A model generated the notes under the pieces. It made no database searches and had not been told where the DNA came from. It worked only from the letters and a program-made list of their open reading frames with translations. Positions 4,480 through 14,530 of a DNA stretch of 16,226 bases are shown here, one piece after another. Position 1 is the stretch's first letter. Every line of letters begins with the position of its first letter. Made by a program: the position numbers and the translations under genes. The stretch is taken from positions 1 through 16,226 of the forward strand of contig JAFZDV010000090.1 in NCBI GenBank assembly GCA_017560955.1, written 5' to 3'. Source of the DNA: Anaerotignum sp. (GTDB taxonomy: Bacteria; Bacillota; Clostridia; Lachnospirales; Anaerotignaceae).

Positions 4480-4534
4480 TTCAAAATTACATAAGTTTTT
4501 TTGAAGCGTAATTTCTGACTGACATTAGCAATTT

Positions 4535-4582
4535 AGAGGTACCATTTTCGGTTCAGCCGGAGGTGGTACCTCTTGCTTTTTT
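4535..4582 (+). terminator. Terminator between the transporter genes and the dehydrogenase gene
   Basis: A perfect 10-bp stem (AGAGGTACCA 4535-4544 with TGGTACCTCT 4564-4573) encloses a loop with its own CGG/CCG mini-stem. Six T follow at 4577-4582. Confidence 0.82.
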
Positions 4583-4616
4583 ATGAGTATTTTCTCATTT
4601 GTGAGGGTGGAAAATA

Positions 4617-4645
4617 TTGCGAAATCAAGCCAGAACTGGTATGAT
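4617..4645 (+). promoter_or_regulatory. Extended -10 promoter for the dehydrogenase-kinase genes
   Basis: TTGCGA (4617-4622) and TATGAT (4640-4645) are exactly 17 bp apart, with the extended -10 dinucleotide TG at 4637-4638. It lies between the upstream terminator and the dehydrogenase start. Confidence 0.68.
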
Positions 4646-4719
4646 GAAATATAAGAGATCTGTATAAAACAGGTCTGCACAGAAGGTATTTTAATTAAGT
4701 GAAAGTGAGGAGATTCGAT

Positions 4720-5754
4720 ATGAAAAATAGACAGGCATATATGGTAGGTCTGAACAAAATGGAAATTCGTGAAACAGCTGTACCCGAACCCAAAGCTGGT
4801 GAAGTTCTGGTTAAAGTAGAATATGTTGGTATCTGCGGTTCCGATGTACATTACTTCAAAGACGGCAGATGCGGCGACTTCGTGGTTGACGGCGAACTGA
4901 TGCTGGGCCATGAAGCAGGCGGCGTTGTTGTAAAACTGGGCGAAGGCGTAACAGATCTGGCTGTTGGCGATAAAGTAGCTCTGGAACCCGGTATCACATG
5001 CGGTCAGTGTGAATTCTGCAAATCCGGCAGATACAACCTGTGCCCCGATGTAATTTTCCTGGCTACACCTCCCGTACAGGGCTGTAACGAAGATTACATT
5101 GCATTCCCTGCAAATATGTGCTTCAAACTGCCTGAAAATATGACAACAAAAGAAGGCGCTCTGATCGAACCTTTCGCAGTAGGTCTGCATGCAGCGCATC
5201 AGGGTAAAGTAGGCATGGGCGACCAGTGTATCATTCTGGGTTCCGGCTGTATCGGTCTGATGACTCTGCTGGCTTGTAAAGCATGCGGCGCTACAGATAT
5301 CACAGTAGTAGATATGGCTCAGAAACGTCTGGACTTCGCTATGGAACTGGGCGCAACACGCGTGATCAATGCAAAAGAACAGGATGTTCTGAAAGTAGTA
5401 GAAGAACTGACAAATGGCGCTGGTATCGAAAAAGTATTTGAAACAGCAGGTTCTCCTATCACAATCGCACAGACACCTTTCCTGGTAAAAACAGGTGGTA
5501 CAATCACTCTGGTTGGTATGTCTGCAAATCCCGAAATCACATTCAACTTCGGTCAGATCATGGCAAAAGAAGCTAGAATCGAATCCGTATTCCGTTACAG
5601 AAACCTGTATAAAAAAGCAATCGCAGCAGCTGCAGATGGTCTGAATATCGGCAGAATCGCAACACATGAATTCGACTTCGCTGACATTCAGGAAGCATAT
5701 GAAGCATCTGTAAGAGATAAAGAAAACATCGTAAAAGCAGTAATCAAACTGTAA
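4720..5754 (+). CDS. Zinc-dependent polyol dehydrogenase (xylitol/sorbitol/D-arabitol type)
   Basis: This 345-residue medium-chain alcohol dehydrogenase should oxidise a sugar alcohol to a ketose with NAD+ in the cytoplasm. The catalytic zinc site is recognisable as Cys39 (GICGSD), His64 and Glu65 (GHE) with Glu150 (IEPF). The structural zinc site has all four cysteines (94, 97, 100, 108). The Rossmann motif GSGCIG (174-179) and Asp198 at the end of the second strand indicate NAD+ over NADP+. The ATG at 4720 has GAGGAG 7 nt upstream; an in-phase GTG at 4699 would add seven residues but overlaps no better site. The xylulokinase gene begins 31 nt after its stop, which points to D-xylulose as product and thus to xylitol or D-arabitol as substrate. 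Sorbitol to fructose remains possible. Confidence 0.93.
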   Translation: MKNRQAYMVGLNKMEIRETAVPEPKAGEVLVKVEYVGICGSDVHYFKDGRCGDFVVDGELMLGHEAGGVVVKLGEGVTDLAVGDKVALEPGITCGQCEFCKSGRYNLCPDVIFLATPPVQGCNEDYIAFPANMCFKLPENMTTKEGALIEPFAVGLHAAHQGKVGMGDQCIILGSGCIGLMTLLACKACGATDITVVDMAQKRLDFAMELGATRVINAKEQDVLKVVEELTNGAGIEKVFETAGSPITIAQTPFLVKTGGTITLVGMSANPEITFNFGQIMAKEARIESVFRYRNLYKKAIAAAADGLNIGRIATHEFDFADIQEAYEASVRDKENIVKAVIKL

Positions 5755-5785: not shown

Positions 5786-7309
5786 ATGGAATATTTACTG
5801 GGTATTGACATTGGTACTTCCGGTACAAAGACAGTTCTGTTTGACCGTGATGCCAATCCAATCACAGCAAAAACATTTGAATATCCCCTGTATCAGGAAC
5901 AGAACGGCTGGGCAGAACAGGAACCCAACGACTGGTGGGATGCAACTGTAAAAGGTGTGCAGGGCGTTCTGGAAGCATCCGGCGTAAATCCTGCAGACAT
6001 CAAAGGTATCGGCCTTTCCGGTCAGATGCATGGTCTGGTTATGCTGGATGAAGCAGGCGAAGTGCTGCGTCGTTCCATCATCTGGTGCGACCAGAGAACA
6101 GGCGAAGAAGTGGATGACATGAACCGTATGATCGGTGCAGATAAAATCATCCAGATCACAGCAAACCCTGCAGTAACAGGCTTCACAGCAGCGAAGATCC
6201 TGTGGGTGAAAAAACATGAACCCGAACTGTACGCAAAATGTAAACATATCCTGCTGCCTAAAGACTATATCCGTTATAAACTGACAGGCGAATATGCAAC
6301 AGAAGTATCCGATGCTTCCGGTATGCAGCTGATGGATGTTGCAAAGCGTACATGGTCTGATGAAATTCTGGAAGGTCTGGGTATTGATAAAGCACTCTTG
6401 GGTAAAATGTATGAATCTCAGGATGTAACAGGTGCGGTTCATGCAGAAGCATCTCAGCTGACAGGTCTGGCAGAAGGTACTATCGTTGTCGGCGGTGCTG
6501 GTGATAACCCTGCAGCGGCTATCGGTACAGGTATTGTTTCTCAGGGCAAAGCTTTCACAACAATTGGTACATCCGCAGTAGTATATGCAGTATCCGATCA
6601 GATGGCACTGGATCCCAAAGGTAGAGTACATACACTTTGTGCTTCCGTTCCCGGCAAATGGACAGTAATGAGCTGCACACAGGCGGCTGGTCTGTCCCTG
6701 CAGTGGCTGAGAAATAATGTTTGTACACCTGAAATGGCAGAAGCGGCTGAAAAAGGTGTGGATCCTTACGAAATCATGACAGCAGAAGCAGCGCAGGTTC
6801 CCATCGGTTCCGAAAAACTGCTGTATCTGCCTTATCTGATGGGCGAAAGATCTCCTCATCCCGATCCCGACTGCCGTGGCGTATTCTTCGGTCTGTCTGC
6901 AATGCATCAGAGACCTCATTTCATCCGTTCCGTAATGGAAGGTATCTCCTTCTCCCAGTGGGAATGTGTAGAAGTATTCCGTGAAATGGGTGTACCCATT
7001 GAAGATATGATGATCTGCGGCGGCGGTGGCAGAAGCCCCTTCTGGAGACAGATGCTGGCAGATATGTATGGCTGTCCCGTAAGCACAGTACAGTCCGATC
7101 AGGGCGGCGCACTGGGTGCAGCGATCCTGGCTGGTGTAGGTGCAGGCATCTATTCCGATCTGGAAACAGCATGTAACGAACTGGTTCGAAAGAAAGATGT
7201 TGCTGAACCTGATATGGCGGCAAATGGCGAATATGCGAAGTTCTTTACATTATATAAAGATCTGTATAAAACACTGTTCAGTAGTTTCAAAGATCTGAAA
7301 AATATCTAA
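5786..7309 (+). CDS. xylB: Xylulokinase
   Basis: This 507-residue FGGY-family kinase phosphorylates D-xylulose with ATP to D-xylulose 5-phosphate, which enters the pentose phosphate or phosphoketolase pathway. The N-terminal phosphate loop GIDIGTSGTKT contains Asp8. SGQMHG (78-83) matches the substrate-contacting Met-His pair of xylulokinases, WCDQRT follows, and the predicted catalytic base is Asp240 in GGAGDNP. The C-terminal ATP domain has GGGGRSPFWRQMLAD and DQGGALGAAILAG. Length is normal. It follows the dehydrogenase by 31 nt with a weak GGCGGTG binding site, and ends in a terminator 8 nt past the stop. No xylose isomerase is present, so xylulose here most likely comes from the adjacent dehydrogenase. 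Confidence 0.95.
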   Translation: MEYLLGIDIGTSGTKTVLFDRDANPITAKTFEYPLYQEQNGWAEQEPNDWWDATVKGVQGVLEASGVNPADIKGIGLSGQMHGLVMLDEAGEVLRRSIIWCDQRTGEEVDDMNRMIGADKIIQITANPAVTGFTAAKILWVKKHEPELYAKCKHILLPKDYIRYKLTGEYATEVSDASGMQLMDVAKRTWSDEILEGLGIDKALLGKMYESQDVTGAVHAEASQLTGLAEGTIVVGGAGDNPAAAIGTGIVSQGKAFTTIGTSAVVYAVSDQMALDPKGRVHTLCASVPGKWTVMSCTQAAGLSLQWLRNNVCTPEMAEAAEKGVDPYEIMTAEAAQVPIGSEKLLYLPYLMGERSPHPDPDCRGVFFGLSAMHQRPHFIRSVMEGISFSQWECVEVFREMGVPIEDMMICGGGGRSPFWRQMLADMYGCPVSTVQSDQGGALGAAILAGVGAGIYSDLETACNELVRKKDVAEPDMAANGEYAKFFTLYKDLYKTLFSSFKDLKNI

Positions 7310-7468: not shown

Positions 7469-8449
7469 ATGAAAAAGAAATTATTGGCACTGCTGATGTT
7501 CTGCCTGCTGATCTGCAGCATGAGTACAGTGGTTTTTGGTGCGGAAAAAGAGGAATACCCCTATTATGTAACAGTAAACCTGACAGATAATATCGTAACG
7601 GTATATGAAAAGGATGATGCAGGAGAATATACGGTTCCTGTGCGGGCATTCCTTTGTAGTGTAGGGGAGTCTACCCCCGAAGGTACTTTTCAGACACAGG
7701 TGAAATATGACTGGAGGTATCTGTTCGGGGATGTATGGGGGCAGTATGCCACACGTATCATAGGGCATTATCTGTTCCACTCTGTGCCTTATTTTGAAAA
7801 AGATAAAAGTACATTGGAATATGAAGAGTATAACAAACTGGGAACAACAGCATCCATGGGTTGTATCCGCCTGACGGTAGAAGCGGCAAAATGGATCTAT
7901 GACAATTGCCCTGTGGGCACAACTGTAGAGATGTACCATGGGGATGTGGAAGAACCTATACAGCCCGAGGCGGTACAGAAAATCAATGTGAATGATGCTG
8001 TAAAAAGAGGCTGGGACCCCACAGACCCTACGGAAGAAAATCCCTGGAGAAAGGGAGAAATGCGTCAGATGCAGCCTTCCTGGTTTGGTAAGGATGTAGC
8101 AGCTTACTATGAAAATGGTACATACTATCTGAATAAAGCGGGTGCGGAAAAATTATTTTCTCAGGTGGATATCAGACTGAATCTGGAAGAAGCAGAAGTG
8201 AAAGATGGAAAAGTATCTATTTTGCATGAGGATGTAAAAACACTGGTAAGCTGCCGCGTGAAAGATGGAGAAGTTTATTATAAAATCAGAGATCTGGCGG
8301 AAATGGTTGGCGCAGAAATGATCTGGAATGGAGAAATCAAAGAAATCAGCCTGCAGTATGGGGGAAAGGCAGCATCTATCACGTATGGACCTGCTATCAA
8401 GGGTGTGGTTTCTCTTCCTGCAAAGATGGCAGCCTTCTTTTTCAGCTGA
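7469..8449 (+). CDS. Secreted L,D-transpeptidase (YkuD domain) with C-terminal stalk-like region
   Basis: This 326-residue protein has a signal peptide (MKKK, hydrophobic to about residue 24, likely cleavage after VFGA) and a YkuD catalytic domain. Such enzymes make 3-3 cross-links in peptidoglycan or attach proteins to it, outside the membrane. The catalytic cysteine is Cys132 in ASMGCIRL, with His100 in GHYLFH upstream. The usual histidine of the SHGC motif is Met here. From about residue 200 a second region contains YYKIRDLAEMVGA and W (270-287), typical of copper-amine-oxidase N-domain-like stalks that bind envelope structures. This region ends abruptly after PAKMAAFFFS and looks shorter than a full stalk. 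AAGGAG precedes the ATG. The next gene has a related stalk, which suggests shared envelope function. Confidence 0.88.
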   Translation: MKKKLLALLMFCLLICSMSTVVFGAEKEEYPYYVTVNLTDNIVTVYEKDDAGEYTVPVRAFLCSVGESTPEGTFQTQVKYDWRYLFGDVWGQYATRIIGHYLFHSVPYFEKDKSTLEYEEYNKLGTTASMGCIRLTVEAAKWIYDNCPVGTTVEMYHGDVEEPIQPEAVQKINVNDAVKRGWDPTDPTEENPWRKGEMRQMQPSWFGKDVAAYYENGTYYLNKAGAEKLFSQVDIRLNLEEAEVKDGKVSILHEDVKTLVSCRVKDGEVYYKIRDLAEMVGAEMIWNGEIKEISLQYGGKAASITYGPAIKGVVSLPAKMAAFFFS

Positions 8450-8466
8450 TATCTGAGGGGAAAGAT

Positions 8467-8495
8467 TTGCAATTTCTGACACTTTATGGTATGCT
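8467..8495 (+). promoter_or_regulatory. Extended -10 promoter for the following envelope gene
   Basis: TTGCAA (8467-8472), 17 bp, TATGCT (8490-8495), with an extended -10 TG at 8487-8488. It resembles the promoter at 4617 closely. Confidence 0.5.
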
Positions 8496-8525
8496 TTCTG
8501 CGTTGATACAGAAAGAGGGAGAATC

Positions 8526-9545
8526 ATGACGATCAAAAAACTGACAGCGATCGCTGCGGCAGGTGCAGTCCTTCTGGCAGGTGCCATTGGCATCTCCATG
8601 CGACTGACAAGCCCCCATGAAATGGAAATGGCGGTCCCTGAAAAGAATGAAAATATAACAAATGCAGATGGATCTCAGACATTGGGTGAAATGGAAAATA
8701 TCCCTTTGTACTATGATGAAACAGAAAAACTGCTGCTGCCCCTGCGTAATGTAATGGAGGGACTGGGCGGTTCTGTAACATGGAACAAAGAAACAAAAAT
8801 GACTGAGGTGACATATCGCGACAGAACACTGGCGCTGAGAGCAGGGGAAGAAAAAGCCTATCTGAATGGCTATGAAGTGATCCTGCCTGAAGCAGCGGAA
8901 ATCATCAATGGCTGTCTGTATGCAGACGAATCCTTGATTTCTGCGTACTATACAGGTGATGTGGATTTTAATGTGGAAACCAGACAGGTGACGCTACAGA
9001 CAAAGGATAGCAGTATGCCTGTGATGGCAACACGCCTTCTGACAAGGGAAGCAGAGGGAAGGGTTTATGAAATCGAAGTACCTCTTATCATTGGTCTGAA
9101 TGACAACAGTTATGAAGAAAATCTGAATGATATGATGTTGACAGAACTGATGACCTACGGGGATGATTTTCTGGAAGCAGAGCAGGTGGAAAATGGCGAT
9201 GGTCTGCTGAAACTGCAGGCGAAAACAGGAATGTACACCAAGGACTTCCTTTCCATTCGCTGGGAAGGCACAAAAGACGGCGTGCCTGTGAAGTTTGCAA
9301 AAAACATTGACCTGCTGGGCCAGAAAACAATAACACTGGCGGATATGCTGGAAGATACATCCATGGAAAAGGCCAGACTGTATGCCGGTGAAGGCTGGAC
9401 GGAAGACAGATTTTATCTGACAGCGGAAGGTGGCCTGGTACTGATGAAAGGCAGCAATGAAAGCAGTCTGAATATGTACTATTGGACAACAGAAGGAGAA
9501 CAGCCTGAATGGAAAGATACCTACCAGGTGCTGTTTCAGAAATAA
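8526..9545 (+). CDS. Membrane-anchored envelope protein: stalk domain plus DUF4163/DUF3298-like region
   Basis: This 339-residue protein has an N-terminal membrane anchor or uncleaved signal (hydrophobic 6-23). Residues about 58-158 resemble the copper-amine-oxidase N-like stalk: LLLPLRNVMEGLGG (69-82) and Trp86, then a second half ending in VTLQT. From about 178 the pattern YEIEVPLIIGL, asparagine-rich helix, and a late KTITLADMLEDTS segment resembles the DUF4163 and DUF3298 modules found in PdaC-type proteins and RsiV anti-sigma factors. I see no catalytic residues and propose no reaction. It could sense or bind cell-wall material outside the membrane. GAGGGAGA precedes the ATG. It lies 76 nt after the L,D-transpeptidase and has its own likely promoter, so the two may be expressed both together and separately. 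Confidence 0.75.
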   Translation: MTIKKLTAIAAAGAVLLAGAIGISMRLTSPHEMEMAVPEKNENITNADGSQTLGEMENIPLYYDETEKLLLPLRNVMEGLGGSVTWNKETKMTEVTYRDRTLALRAGEEKAYLNGYEVILPEAAEIINGCLYADESLISAYYTGDVDFNVETRQVTLQTKDSSMPVMATRLLTREAEGRVYEIEVPLIIGLNDNSYEENLNDMMLTELMTYGDDFLEAEQVENGDGLLKLQAKTGMYTKDFLSIRWEGTKDGVPVKFAKNIDLLGQKTITLADMLEDTSMEKARLYAGEGWTEDRFYLTAEGGLVLMKGSNESSLNMYYWTTEGEQPEWKDTYQVLFQK

Positions 9546-10063: not shown

Positions 10064-13000
10064 ATGGCTAAAGTTATGAAAACTATGGATGGTAACGAAG
10101 CTGCTGCATACGCTTCCTATGCGTTTACAGAAGTAGCTGGTATCTTCCCCATCACACCTTCCTCTCCCATGGCTGAAAAAACAGACGACTGGGCAGCAAA
10201 CGGTAAAAAGAACCTGTTTGGTCAGGAAGTAAAAGTTGTTGAAATGCAGTCCGAAGCTGGTGCTGCAGGTACAGTACACGGCTCTCTGGCAGCTGGTGCT
10301 CTGACAACAACATACACAGCATCTCAGGGTCTGCTGCTGATGATCCCTAACATGTACAAAATCGCCGGCGAACTGCTGCCTTGCGTATTCCACGTAACAG
10401 CACGTGCTCTGGCTGCACATGCTCTGTCCATCTTCGGCGACCATTCCGACGTTATGGCATGCCGTCAGACAGGTTTCGCAATGCTGGTTTCCAACTCCGT
10501 ACAGGAAGTTATGGACCTGGCTTGTGTAGCTCACCTGTCCGCAATCAAAGGCCGTGTTCCTTTCCTGCACTTCTTCGATGGTTTCCGTACATCTCACGAA
10601 ATCCAGAAAATCGAATGCATGGATTACGAAGAACTGGCTAAGATCATCGACATGGATGCGGTTAACACATTCAAGAGAAATGCTCTGAACCCTGAACACC
10701 CCGTGATCAGAGGTACAGCTCAGAACCCCGATATCTACTTCCAGGGCCGTGAAGCAGCTAACAAATTCTATGATGCTCTGCCTGCAGTAGTAGAAGAATA
10801 CATGGGCGAAATTTCCAGAATCACAGGCAGAGATTACAAACTGTTCAACTACTACGGTGCTCCCGATGCTGACAGAGTAATCGTTGCTATGGGTTCCGCT
10901 TGTGAAGCAATCGAAGAAACAATCGATTACATGACAGCAAAAGGCGAAAAAGTTGGTCTGGTTAAAGTACACCTGTTCAGACCTTTCGTAGCATCCAAAC
11001 TGCTGGAAGTAATCCCTAAAACAGCTAAGAAAATCGCTGTTCTGGATAGAACAAAAGAACCCGGCTCTCAGGGTGAACCTCTGTACATGGATGTATGTAC
11101 AGCAATGTTCGAAGCTGAAGAAGCTCCCGTTGTAGTAGGCGGCCGTTATGGTCTGGGTTCCAAAGACGTTACACCTGCACAGTTCCTGGCAGTATACGCT
11201 AACCTGTCTCTGGACAAACCTAAAAACCACTTCACACTGGGTATCGTGGATGACGTTACAAACACATCCCTGGAAGTTGGCGAAGAAGTTAACGTTACAG
11301 GCAACGACGGCACAATCTCCTGCAAATTCTGGGGTCTGGGCGCTGACGGTACTGTAGGTGCTAACAAAAACTCCATCAAAATCATCGGTGACCATACTGA
11401 CAAATATGCTCAGGCATACTTCAGCTATGACTCCAAAAAATCCGGTGGTATCACTCAGTCCCACCTGCGTTTCGGTGACACACCCATCAGATCTACATAC
11501 CTGGTAAAAACAGCTGACTTCGTAGCTTGTCACAAACAGGAATATGTAAACCTGTATGATATGGTTACTGAACTGAATGACGGTGGTACATTCCTGCTGA
11601 ACACAGAATGGACAGTAGAAGAACTGGATGAAAAACTGCCCGCTAAACTGAAAAAACAGCTGGCTGCAAAACATGCTAACTTCTATGTGATCAATGGTAC
11701 AGCAATCGCTCATGAAATCGGTCTGGGCAACAGAATCAACACAGTTCTGCAGGCTGCATTCTTCAAACTGGCTAACATCATTCCCATTGAACAGGCTGTT
11801 GAATACATGAAAGCAGCGATCACAAAATCCTACGGCAAAAAAGGTGACACAATCCTGAACATGAACTATGCTGCTGTTGACCGCGGTGTAGATGGTGCTG
11901 TTAAGGTTGAAATCCCCGCTGCATGGGCTGATGCTGTTGACACAACAGTAGTTGTAGAAAGAAAGAAAACAGACTTCGTAAAAGCAATCGTAGATCCTAT
12001 GAACGCTCAGGAAGGCGACAAACTGCCCGTATCCGCATTCGCTGGCAGAGAAGATGGTCACTTCCCTTGCGGTACAGCTGCTTACGAAAAACGTGGTGTA
12101 GCTGTTAACGTACCCGAATGGAACGCTGACAACTGTATCCAGTGTAACCAGTGCTCTTATGTATGTCCTCACGCTGCAATCAGACCCGTTCTGGTAACAG
12201 ATGAAGAACTGGCTAAAGCACCCGAAGCATTCAAAGCTGTTGAAGCAAAAGGCGGCGCAGCATTTGCTGGTCTGAAATACAGAATGCAGGTTTCCGCTCT
12301 CGACTGTCTGGGCTGCGGTTCCTGTGCAGAAGTATGTCCCGCTCCTAACAAAGCTCTGGTTATGAAATCTCTGGCTACTCAGGAAGCTGAAATCGCTAAC
12401 TGGGACTTCATGATCGACGAAGTAGAACACAAAGCTAACCCTATGGGTAAAGGCTCTGTAAAAGGTTCTCAGTTCGAAGAACCCCTGCTGGAATTCTCCG
12501 GTGCATGTGCAGGTTGTGGTGAAACACCTTACGCTAAACTGGTAACACAGCTGTTCGGTGATAGAATGTATGTTGCAAACGCAACAGGTTGCTCCTCCAT
12601 CTGGGGTGGCTCCGCTCCTTCTATGCCTTACACAGTAAACAAAGACGGCCGTGGTCCCGCTTGGGCAAACTCCCTGTTCGAAGACAACGCAGAATATGGT
12701 CTGGGTATGGCTTCCGCTGTAAAACAGATGAGAGCTGGCCTGAAAGATAAACTGGAAAACCTGAAAGCAATCGACGCTTCCGTTGCAGGTGTTGTTGATG
12801 CTTGGGTAGAAACAATGTTCGACGGTGAAAAATCCAGAGAAGCATCCGACGCTCTGGTAGCTGCACTGGAAGCTTACGCTGGCACAGATGCAGAAGCGAA
12901 AAACATCGTTTCTTATGTACTGACAAACAAAGATCAGCTGGTGAAAAAATCTCAGTGGATCTTCGGTGGTGACGGCTGGGCTTACGATATCGGTTACGGC

Positions 13001-13594
13001 GGTCTGGACCACGTACTGGCATCCGGCGAAGATGTAAACGTTCTGGTATTCGATACAGAAGTTTACTCCAACACAGGCGGTCAGGCATCCAAATCCACAC
13101 CCGTTGGTGCAGTTGCTCAGTTCGCTGCATCCGGTAAGAGAGTGAAGAAAAAAGACCTGGGTATGATGGCTATGTCCTATGGCTATGTATACGTTGCACA
13201 GGTTGCTATGGGCGCAGACAAAAACCAGCTGGTTAAAGCTCTGGTTGAAGCTGAAAAATACCATGGTCCTTCCCTGATCATCGCTTACGCTCCTTGTATC
13301 AACCACGGTCTGAAAGGCGGCATGGCTGGTGCTCAGAACGAAATCAAACGTGCAGTTGAAGCAGGTTACTGGCATATGTACAGATTCAACCCTGAACTGA
13401 AAGAACAGGGCCAGAATCCTTTCACACTGGACTCCAAAGAACCTACAGCATCCTTCAGAGACTTCCTGCTGAGCGAAGTTCGTTACTCCGCACTGCAGAG
13501 AACATTCCCTGAAATCGCTGAAGAACTGTTCGTTGAAACAGAAAAGAACGCAAAAGACAGACTGGAAGGCTACAAAAAACTGGCTCAGGGTTAA
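10064..13594 (+). CDS. nifJ: Pyruvate:ferredoxin (flavodoxin) oxidoreductase, single-chain
   Basis: This 1176-residue cytoplasmic enzyme oxidises pyruvate and CoA to acetyl-CoA and CO2, passing electrons to ferredoxin, and is central to anaerobic fermentation. Active-site residues match the Desulfovibrio africanus enzyme in number: Thr31 (ITPSSP), Glu64 (MQSEAG) and Arg114 (VTAR). The ferredoxin-like domain holds two CxxCxxCxxxC motifs (Cys691, 694, 697, 701 and Cys748, 751, 754, 758). The proximal cluster ligands are Cys815, Cys818, Cys843 and Cys1078. The thiamine diphosphate site includes GDGWAYDIG and NTGGQ. The domain order is the usual one: two alpha-like domains, gamma/EKR domain, dicluster domain, TPP-binding domain. 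Length is normal. A strong AAGGAGG precedes the ATG. It appears monocistronic, with its own promoter and terminator. Confidence 0.97.
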   Translation: MAKVMKTMDGNEAAAYASYAFTEVAGIFPITPSSPMAEKTDDWAANGKKNLFGQEVKVVEMQSEAGAAGTVHGSLAAGALTTTYTASQGLLLMIPNMYKIAGELLPCVFHVTARALAAHALSIFGDHSDVMACRQTGFAMLVSNSVQEVMDLACVAHLSAIKGRVPFLHFFDGFRTSHEIQKIECMDYEELAKIIDMDAVNTFKRNALNPEHPVIRGTAQNPDIYFQGREAANKFYDALPAVVEEYMGEISRITGRDYKLFNYYGAPDADRVIVAMGSACEAIEETIDYMTAKGEKVGLVKVHLFRPFVASKLLEVIPKTAKKIAVLDRTKEPGSQGEPLYMDVCTAMFEAEEAPVVVGGRYGLGSKDVTPAQFLAVYANLSLDKPKNHFTLGIVDDVTNTSLEVGEEVNVTGNDGTISCKFWGLGADGTVGANKNSIKIIGDHTDKYAQAYFSYDSKKSGGITQSHLRFGDTPIRSTYLVKTADFVACHKQEYVNLYDMVTELNDGGTFLLNTEWTVEELDEKLPAKLKKQLAAKHANFYVINGTAIAHEIGLGNRINTVLQAAFFKLANIIPIEQAVEYMKAAITKSYGKKGDTILNMNYAAVDRGVDGAVKVEIPAAWADAVDTTVVVERKKTDFVKAIVDPMNAQEGDKLPVSAFAGREDGHFPCGTAAYEKRGVAVNVPEWNADNCIQCNQCSYVCPHAAIRPVLVTDEELAKAPEAFKAVEAKGGAAFAGLKYRMQVSALDCLGCGSCAEVCPAPNKALVMKSLATQEAEIANWDFMIDEVEHKANPMGKGSVKGSQFEEPLLEFSGACAGCGETPYAKLVTQLFGDRMYVANATGCSSIWGGSAPSMPYTVNKDGRGPAWANSLFEDNAEYGLGMASAVKQMRAGLKDKLENLKAIDASVAGVVDAWVETMFDGEKSREASDALVAALEAYAGTDAEAKNIVSYVLTNKDQLVKKSQWIFGGDGWAYDIGYGGLDHVLASGEDVNVLVFDTEVYSNTGGQASKSTPVGAVAQFAASGKRVKKKDLGMMAMSYGYVYVAQVAMGADKNQLVKALVEAEKYHGPSLIIAYAPCINHGLKGGMAGAQNEIKRAVEAGYWHMYRFNPELKEQGQNPFTLDSKEPTASFRDFLLSEVRYSALQRTFPEIAEELFVETEKNAKDRLEGYKKLAQG

Positions 13595-13693: not shown

Positions 13694-13724
13694 CCCCGAA
13701 CCCGAAAGGGTTCGGGGTTTTTTA
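13694..13724 (+). terminator. Strong terminator of nifJ
   Basis: CCCCGAACCC (13694-13703) pairs perfectly with GGGTTCGGGG (13708-13717) around GAAA, followed by six T. Confidence 0.95.
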
Positions 13725-13753
13725 TTGAAATGAAACAGAAATCATGTTACGAT
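13725..13753 (+). promoter_or_regulatory. Extended -10 promoter for the barnase-barstar unit
   Basis: TTGAAA (13725-13730) directly follows the nifJ terminator; 17 bp later comes TACGAT (13748-13753) with TG at 13745-13746. The -10 box matches consensus in four of six bases. Confidence 0.5.
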
Positions 13754-13788
13754 AAAATCATAATTTGAACCTTGAGGAGGAATGTAAT

Positions 13789-14241
13789 ATGAAAAAGAAA
13801 CTGACAGCTTATATGTTGATGATGCTGATGTTCTGCATGACACTTCTGAGCGGCTGTGGCGGCGGAGAACAGGGTTATGAAGAAGGTCAGACAGATGTTG
13901 TTACCATTGAGGAAGATGGCTGGTATTACAGCACAGAAGATGTAGCACTGTATCTGTATACTTATGGTGAACTGCCTGAAAACTTTATTACAAAGAAAGA
14001 AGCACAGAAACTGGGCTGGGACAACAAAAAAGGCAACCTGTGGGAAGTGGCTGACGGTATGTGCATCGGCGGTGACTATTTTGGTAACTACGAAGGTCTG
14101 CTGCCCGAAGAAGATGATTATACAGAATGTGATGTAAACTATGAAGGTGGCTACCGTGGTGCAGAACGCATCATCTTCTCTGATGATGGCGATATCTACT
14201 ACACAGGCGACCACTACAAGAGCTTTGAACAGCTGTATTGA
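13789..14241 (+). CDS. Barnase-family ribonuclease, predicted lipoprotein
   Basis: This 150-residue protein is a guanyl-preferring RNase homologue. A lipoprotein signal ends in LLSGC (Cys23), so it should be tethered to the outer face of the membrane. The mature part aligns with Bacillus amyloliquefaciens barnase along its length: LPENFITKKEAQKLGW, KGNL, IGGDYFGNYEG, DVNYEGGYR, ERIIFS and DHY. All five catalytic residues have counterparts: Lys69 (barnase Lys27), Glu113 (Glu73), Arg123 (Arg83), Arg127 (Arg87) and His142 (His102). Barnase Glu60, which reads guanine, is kept as Glu102; Arg59 is replaced by Tyr101. The mature chain is very acidic (about 30 Asp/Glu against 8 Lys/Arg). GAGGAGG lies 8 nt before the ATG; an in-phase TTG at 13765 is less likely. 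The barstar-like gene follows after 14 nt. Confidence 0.92.
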   Translation: MKKKLTAYMLMMLMFCMTLLSGCGGGEQGYEEGQTDVVTIEEDGWYYSTEDVALYLYTYGELPENFITKKEAQKLGWDNKKGNLWEVADGMCIGGDYFGNYEGLLPEEDDYTECDVNYEGGYRGAERIIFSDDGDIYYTGDHYKSFEQLY

Positions 14242-14255
14242 TCGGGGTGAAGGAT

Positions 14256-14492
14256 ATGAAATATATTCTGGATGGGAAAAAGATGGTTTCTAAAGAGGAA
14301 ACACATAAGTATCTGAAAGAAACTTTCGGCTTTCCTGAACATTACGGCAATAATCTGGATGCACTCCATGACTGCCTGATGGAACGAAACGTTATGGAAA
14401 TTGAAGTGGAGCATGAGGAAAAAATGCTGGCGGCGCTGGGCAAATATGGTGAAAAACTGATGCAGGTGCTGGATGATGTGAAAAACAGATAA
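14256..14492 (+). CDS. Barstar-family ribonuclease inhibitor, short form
   Basis: This 78-residue cytoplasmic protein should bind and block the adjacent barnase homologue before export. It aligns without gaps to barstar over the binding helix and loop: HYGNNLDALHDCL (29-41) places Asp35 and Asp39, the two main inhibitor residues, at the same numbers as in barstar. Tyr29 and Trp38 of barstar are His here, and the Glu76 position is occupied by an Asp (73 or 74). The chain stops at DDVKNR, about 10 residues before the end of barstar, so the last beta-strand is missing. The next bases form a terminator, with no sign of a frameshift. The ATG at 14256 has GGGGTGA 5 nt upstream; the frame is also open from a TTG at 14238 that overlaps the barnase stop. 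Confidence 0.88.
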   Translation: MKYILDGKKMVSKEETHKYLKETFGFPEHYGNNLDALHDCLMERNVMEIEVEHEEKMLAALGKYGEKLMQVLDDVKNR

Positions 14493-14494
14493 AC

Positions 14495-14530
14495 AAAAAG
14501 GATATATCTGAAACAGATATATCCTTTTTT
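14495..14530. terminator. Bidirectional terminator between the barstar gene and metA
   Basis: A perfect 16-bp stem, AAAAAGGATATATCTG (14495-14510) with CAGATATATCCTTTTT (14514-14529), closes on AAA. A-tracts and T-tracts on the two sides let it work on both strands. It separates the barstar gene (stop 14492) from metA (stop 14538, minus strand). Confidence 0.92.

Follow-up and report, generated by a model that had tools for sequence, protein, structure and literature searches.

A barnase-type ribonuclease with a predicted lipid anchor and its adjacent barstar in Anaerotignum

Two neighbouring genes of the window, by which we mean the whole stretch of 16,226 nucleotides analysed here, encode a barnase-type ribonuclease of 150 residues (13789..14241 including stop, forward strand) and, after a gap of 14 nt on the same strand, a barstar of 78 residues (14256..14492 including stop). 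Judging from its sequence, the RNase appears to be tethered to the outer face of the membrane through Cys23, a residue predicted to be lipidated. We lean towards the reading that it digests RNA close to the wall while barstar guards the cytoplasm, and favour this over contact killing. The genome is 68% complete in 267 contigs, and its nearest named records are two Anaerotignum MAGs, L024 (88% identity) and L025 (84%).

The RNase scores 73 bits against PF00545 (cut-off 24) in a Pfam profile scan, its single Pfam match, and its top PDB matches are barnase chains (up to 103.7 bits, E 7.8e-29). The gene is preceded by a ribosome-binding site read from the sequence, gaggagg at 13774..13780 (forward strand), 8 nt ahead of the ATG, and the protein is laid out as a signal peptide, a short spacer and the RNase domain (13936..14238, forward strand; residues 50–148 in the PDB barnase alignment). 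This domain carries Glu102 and the counterparts of barnase Lys27, Glu73, Arg83, Arg87 and His102, namely Lys69, Glu113, Arg123, Arg127 and His142, so that the first-pass annotation was correct in calling a barnase homologue with five catalytic residues. The columns of all six residues hardly vary among 82 non-redundant relatives (83 ORFs, L074 counted once), in which Lys27 and Arg87 are kept in 82 and Glu73, Arg83 and His102 in 81 each. In the L074 locus (4521-5350), the RNase lies in two reading frames beside a barstar, either a decayed copy or a sequencing error. The predicted structure of the window domain has a mean pLDDT of 96, matches barnase with a TM of about 0.9 in Foldseek, and, for 49 of the 50 PDB matches listed, superposes on barnase or binase within 1.0–1.4 Å.

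One residue departs from barnase: Arg59 is replaced by Tyr101 (codon at 14089..14091, forward strand) in the PDB alignment. At position 59, 55 of the 82 RNases have Tyr, 20 have Arg, 6 have another residue and 1 has a gap; within the genus, G008 has Lys. Tyr is the commonest state; by sequence it would mark a branch of the family, with PF00545 membership unaffected. The dN/dS of the RNase domain is 0.03–0.10 in the six listed comparisons with finite dS, against 0.02–0.09 for metA and 0.04–0.17 for pyruvate:ferredoxin oxidoreductase (PFOR) among listed, finite values, several dS being high or saturated throughout. Such ratios indicate purifying selection on the domain, of a strength like that on metA. 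Neither the RNase nor barstar was matched by NCBIfam profiles (E 0.001) or by the PADLOC defence library (E 0.1), and a defence-system identity for the pair was set aside on the latter result.

The N-terminus has the anatomy of a lipoprotein. Residues 1–22 (13789..13854, forward strand) read as a signal peptide with a KKK n-region, a hydrophobic stretch and then Leu20-Ser-Gly-Cys23, an LSG lipobox directly ahead of the predicted lipid-bearing residue (Cys23 codon, 13855..13857, forward strand), and a spacer of about 26–27 residues by count (13858..13935, forward strand) leads from the anchor to the RNase domain. This call, made by sequence pattern rather than by a trained predictor, agrees with an earlier claim of a lipobox at Cys23. 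All 6 syntenic genomes retain Gly-Cys although the rest of the N-terminus changes fast, and the RNases of the genus genomes G013 and G015 have it too; the RNase of G012 is a divergent copy whose hydrophobic stretch has no lipobox. Among relatives, 44 of the 61 sampled RNases have a hydrophobic N-terminal stretch, followed in 28 of the 44 by a lipobox-like motif (27 without L127, where the motif seems incidental), against a mean of 7.6 and a maximum of 14 in shuffled windows (500 runs). The strict motif was observed 16 times versus 1.7 in shuffles. The other 17 RNases (L156-L171, L173) were classed by eye as not membrane-tethered, although L159 among them nonetheless passes the hydrophobicity threshold.

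The enzymes of lipoprotein maturation are also in place. All 9 genus genomes have LspA, and Lgt was detected in 7 of them, the genome of the window being among those with both; a miss of Lgt does not equal its absence because the same search also missed the control, Bacillus subtilis. Together, Gly-Cys conservation, the lipobox excess and the presence of LspA and Lgt lend sequence support to the tethered RNase that had been suggested before. Alternatively, the lipobox could be unused, with an ordinary signal peptidase cutting the precursor, the RNase secreted free like barnase, and Cys23 incidental. The motif is indeed absent in 16 of the 44 relatives with hydrophobic N-termini, some of which may have cleavable signals; however, the retention of Gly-Cys in 6 of 6 syntenic genomes within so variable an N-terminus, the excess over shuffles and the lipoprotein enzymes argue against an incidental Cys23, and we regard free secretion as quite unlikely.

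The spacer bears on where a tethered RNase could reach. It counts 27 residues from Cys23 to the domain in the window RNase and 20–136 across the 26 RNases measured. An extended chain covers about 0.35 nm per residue, and the Gram-positive wall is 20–40 nm thick. Because the 27-residue spacer, even when stretched, is shorter than 10 nm and thus shorter than the wall, the RNase probably sits beneath the wall, too near the lipid to cross.

The second gene product scores 68.3 bits against PF01337 (cut-off 23.4), has a PDB barstar match at E 7e-7, and yields a model with a mean pLDDT of 91 that lies within 1.6–2.2 Å of barstar in 19 PDB matches with E <= 0.001. A 78-residue barstar homologue 14 nt downstream of the RNase had been proposed, and profile, PDB match and coordinates all agree with it. 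Asp35 and Asp39, invariant among 41 aligned barstars, are kept; Trp38 is replaced by His38 in the PDB alignment, and Glu76 pairs with Asp74 in an alignment made by eye. The barstar sheet has three strands. In the model, strands are found only at residues 2–6 and 48–52, and the chain stops before a stretch that is present in G010, G011 and G014. The barstars of these three genomes have the last strand, which is missing from those of G000, G008 and probably G009; among 59 barstars, its loss was seen by eye only in G000, G008 and G009, the fused barstars being unclear in this respect. As modelled, the window barstar is a shortened PF01337 member with an incomplete three-stranded sheet. Its dN/dS (0.15–0.36 in five listed comparisons, several dS being high or saturated) exceeds that of the RNase domain, and the lost strand together with the faster evolution could mean a weaker inhibitor.

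The two genes look like a stand-alone, two-gene operon. Upstream lies the PFOR gene (10064-13594), whose predicted terminator, a 10-pair hairpin with a T run (13694..13717, forward strand, by scan), separates it from the pair; a hairpin and T run are visible by eye at this site in six aligned genomes, with varying sequence. A candidate promoter follows at 13725..13753 (forward strand, scan 9/12), TTGAAA and TACGAT spaced by 17 nt, the latter an extended -10 with TG one base before. The promoter scan count was not above chance (4 sites versus 2.1 +/- 2.0 in shuffles); the extended -10 (TGnTAnnAT) is identical in 6 of 6 syntenic genomes. Downstream of barstar, a predicted terminator with a 16-pair hairpin, found by scan on both strands (14495..14529), is perhaps shared with metA, which lies on the opposite strand and is followed by a Cys/Met-metabolism enzyme. 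Terminator-like sites in the window exceed chance, with 6 against 0.6 +/- 0.8 in shuffles. These signals are in line with the flanking promoter and terminator of the first-pass annotation, and its view of a stand-alone unit likewise finds support in the sequence. Upstream of PFOR (7469-9545), we also note an L,D-transpeptidase (YkuD) in which a copper-amine-oxidase N-terminal-like domain is weakly matched; the protein after it has such a domain as well.

The locus is held in common by much of the genus. Six of 9 genus genomes (G000, G008, G009, G010, G011 and G014) have in common the order copper-amine-oxidase-N-like gene, PFOR, RNase, barstar, and metA with its next gene follows the pair in G000, G009, G011 and G014. 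In G013 and G015, the RNase has an efflux-like operon rather than a barstar for a neighbour, and barstar is found on another contig beside a glutamate-synthase-like gene (L177:5673-5981 and L178:4568-4876; neighbours named by eye in all these cases). The G012 contig ends just past the RNase, and a barstar search of that genome gave zero matches. G011 has a second barstar match (L179, about 5956-6231) with one stop inside, near what by eye is an aminopeptidase-like gene. No third conserved gene was seen beside the pair: clustering of the 216 immediate neighbours with a length of 90 aa or more gave 139 clusters, 98 of them singletons, the largest cluster (9) consisting of barstar fusions and most other larger ones coming from close relatives. 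This neighbour set was compiled without the loci below L024, L074, L099, L156-L171, L173 and duplicates. A mobile origin of the window copy was considered and found no support, with zero matches in 50,697 phage records and shared neighbours in 6 of 9 genus genomes. Partial matches (35–74% of the query, best E 2e-37) came from six plasmid records; five of these, each at least 0.59 Mb, may be chromosomal.

A complete nuclease-inhibitor unit of this kind had been called uncommon, and a survey of related genomes proposed; the survey contradicts that claim. The RNase is found in 9 of 9 genus genomes, 13 of 58 family genomes and 57 of 393 sampled class genomes, and barstar in 15 of the 58 and 71 of the 393. 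Twelve of the 13 RNase-bearing family genomes also have barstar; in the class, it is found in 54 of the 57 genomes with the RNase versus 17 of the 336 others, and 319 have neither gene (Fisher p 2e-47, uncorrected for kinship). In the available part of Zhang et al. 2012 (PMC3482391), simple barnase-barstar gene pairs are likewise called "widely distributed". The counts of RNase and pair in genus, family and class ruled out the reading as a rare unit: it is common, yet patchy outside the genus (13/58 and 57/393), and the RNase is therefore dispensable. Barstar is the same-strand neighbour of the RNase in 52 of the 61 sampled cases. These comprise 36 of the 44 with hydrophobic N-termini (8 of 44 have no adjacent barstar), a group in which 22 of the 28 RNases bearing a lipobox-like motif have the neighbour, and 16 of the 17 others. 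Adjacency and co-occurrence, with the suggestive covariation described below, give sequence support to the idea that barstar is the cognate cytosolic guard.

Arg59 of barnase, the residue replaced here, belongs to the guanine loop and is a main barstar contact. According to the available part of PMC4207830, it contacts barstar Asp35 and Glu76, and barstar Trp38 in the bound state lies near barnase Lys27, so Arg59-Trp38 would not be the main bound contact. When corrected mutual information was computed over 106 natural pairs (effective number 80), RNase column 101 (barnase 59) and barstar column 38 came third among 8436 column pairs. The combinations are Arg-Trp in 22, Lys-Trp in 5, Tyr-Tyr in 27, Tyr-His in 11, Tyr-Asn in 10, Tyr-Phe in 5 and Tyr-Trp in 4, with Arg opposite a residue other than Trp in 8. 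In the first part of the data (57 pairs), Arg or Lys goes with Trp in 14 of 21 cases and Tyr with Trp in 1 of 33; in 49 further pairs, the figures are 13 of 15 and 3 of 26. Removing the phage-type pairs from the latter set leaves 34, with Arg opposite Trp in 5 of 6 and Tyr opposite Trp in 2 of 25. The 59/38 pair was first noticed in the data and the letter groups were chosen afterwards; the pair set is free of L074 (two frames), L172, L173, duplicates and RNases with no barstar in range, and a gap at barstar residue 38 (L159) was scored as non-Trp in the tree tests and the split-data counts.

Relatedness accounts for part of this covariation, and the tree tests disagree. An independent-pairs test on the tree for 59/38 was not significant. 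A one-trait tree simulation gave p 0.0010 and 0.0035 in the two directions for Arg-Trp; for Arg/Lys-Trp the values were 0 of 4000 and 0.0005, and for Tyr-Trp 0.0018. In an all-column simulation screen, roughly calibrated with 6.3% of tests below 0.05, the 59/38 pair had p 0.0027 and ranked 14 of 4095 by p. We take the covariation as suggestive that the two proteins bind as barnase and barstar do.

Some relatives carry further domains. L055 (87-1652) joins the RNase and a GDSL lipase in one chain behind a lipobox, and L127 (3060-4217) joins it to an alpha/beta hydrolase behind a membrane stretch, both by Pfam scan; L064, L065 and L067 have a tail as long as that of L055, length alone being compared. 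Fusions to lipase and hydrolase suggest a digestive role for the RNase. Barstar, too, occurs in fusions: in frame to QueA (L028:5378-6658; L029, L031 and L033 are alike by sequence), to DUF169 (L059:1418-2545), to a DegT aminotransferase (L068:943-2490), to SIR2 (L082:4239-5303), and to about 190 residues with no Pfam match (L034:5510-6334; L036 is alike). It is odd that an RNase inhibitor should be fused to its neighbouring gene in several different ways.

It is reasonable to hypothesize the following course for the window pair. The RNase would be exported unfolded by Sec; Cys23 would receive its lipid, signal peptidase II would cut, and the RNase would fold outside, held between membrane and wall by its spacer of about 27 residues. 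There it would cut RNA fragments diffusing inward from gut contents or lysed neighbours (the habitat is a guess), and the cleavage products would supply nucleosides and phosphate. Cytoplasmic barstar would block any RNase that folds before export, and tethering, unlike the release of free barnase, would retain the products for the producer. We favour digestion because of the lipase and hydrolase fusions and because, in the available part of PMC5021464, balifase, the homologue in Bacillus licheniformis, is reported to share an operon with its inhibitor and to be induced by phosphate starvation. The intact catalytic residues, the low dN/dS of the RNase domain, the kept Gly-Cys and lipobox excess, the presence of LspA and Lgt, the adjacency and co-occurrence of barstar, the 59/38 covariation and the differing neighbours also speak for it. 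Against it stand the lack of a phosphate or nucleotide gene among the window proteins identified, the patchiness of the RNase outside the genus, the RNases with no adjacent barstar (8/44; G013, G015), the absence of a barstar match in G012, the shortened and fast-evolving barstar, the disagreement of the tree tests, and a conflict over B. licheniformis: against PMC5021464, the available part of PMC8837141 has barstar absent from that species.

Nutrient scavenging and contact competition were the two roles first put forward, and the former would be the better. In contact or vesicle-borne competition, the tethered RNase would be a toxin and barstar its immunity protein, with the 59/38 classes as specificities. 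The gene order is that of toxin then immunity, the available part of PMC3482391 describes barstar as giving immunity specifically against barnase-like toxins, positions 59 and 38 covary, the distribution outside the genus is patchy, and some relatives have the RNase and barstar in phage-head-like proteins (of 10 set-apart RNases tested, 5 match Phage_Mu_F: L156, L162, L163, L166 and L170, 3 of them over the cut-off). However, polymorphic toxin systems are recognized by a delivery domain or secretion-system trait ahead of the toxin domain, and the window RNase has neither; as the first-pass annotation had stated for secretion systems, a scan of 12 window proteins, with the partial first ORF (1-444) left out, turned up neither a delivery domain nor a secretion gene. 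The 27-residue spacer is probably too short to span a Gram-positive wall, purifying selection on the RNase domain is strong, the pair keeps its site beside PFOR in 6 of 9 genus genomes with the RNase in 9 of 9, phage records gave zero matches, and fusions are to lipase and hydrolase domains. We therefore consider competition unlikely.

If, instead, barstar were lost or degraded and unexported RNase halted growth, for example after phage infection, the pair would be a cytoplasmic toxin-antitoxin or self-killing device. The 14-nt gap between the genes, the shortened and faster-evolving inhibitor, and the relatives' barstars that stand alone or are fused to other enzymes fit such a device, but a conserved signal peptide implies an enzyme meant to leave, and PADLOC gave zero matches; we find it highly improbable. 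The RNase might also act outside the membrane on the cell's own RNA, for example RNA shed in vesicles or part of a biofilm matrix, and its role would then be structural or one of signalling, not nutritional. Its anatomy would be the same and our data do not separate own from foreign RNA, yet this role has no direct support and the lipase and hydrolase fusions point to general degradation, which makes it rather improbable to us. Digestion of RNA at the wall stays our preferred reading.

Apparently tethered pairs in Clostridia form a large natural set in which another residue stands in for Arg59 and barstar residue 38 tends to differ along with it. Such a set would make the evolution of the barnase-barstar interface testable, and would suggest that digestion of RNA at the membrane has been overlooked in these bacteria. 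As a long shot, the tethered Clostridia barnases may be an unrecognised class of envelope RNases with an interface rewired at 59/38, in which the Arg-Trp and the Tyr-Tyr/His/Asn/Phe groups do not cross-react and serve kin discrimination.

Barnase and barstar are a textbook pair for protein binding, but most of what is known of their biology comes from Bacillus enzymes that are secreted free. A lipid-anchored barnase is described in no title or abstract opening that we found, in mostly non-subscription literature, which is a weak sign of novelty. Among known systems, the Clostridia phage Mu-F-like barnases belong to the same RNase family and have barstar adjacent in 4 of 5 cases (L162 lies at a contig end); unlike in the window, their RNase is the C-terminus of a phage-head-like protein, and 13 of the 15 pairs classed by eye as phage-type have Trp at barstar residue 38. 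The pairs of Zhang et al. 2012 share the stand-alone order of RNase then inhibitor, with no lipobox mentioned in the available part of that text (PMC3482391). In the available part of PMC5021464, the genes for balifase and its inhibitor in B. licheniformis are described as one operon, a feature shared with the window pair, and balifase as extracellular, a point of difference. With barnase and barstar of Bacillus amyloliquefaciens, the window pair has in common the RNase fold, the five catalytic residues, the inhibitor fold and Asp35/Asp39. It differs in an RNase that is predicted to be lipid-anchored rather than freely secreted and has Tyr for Arg59, and in an inhibitor with His for Trp38, Asp74 in the place of Glu76 (by eye) and the last strand missing.
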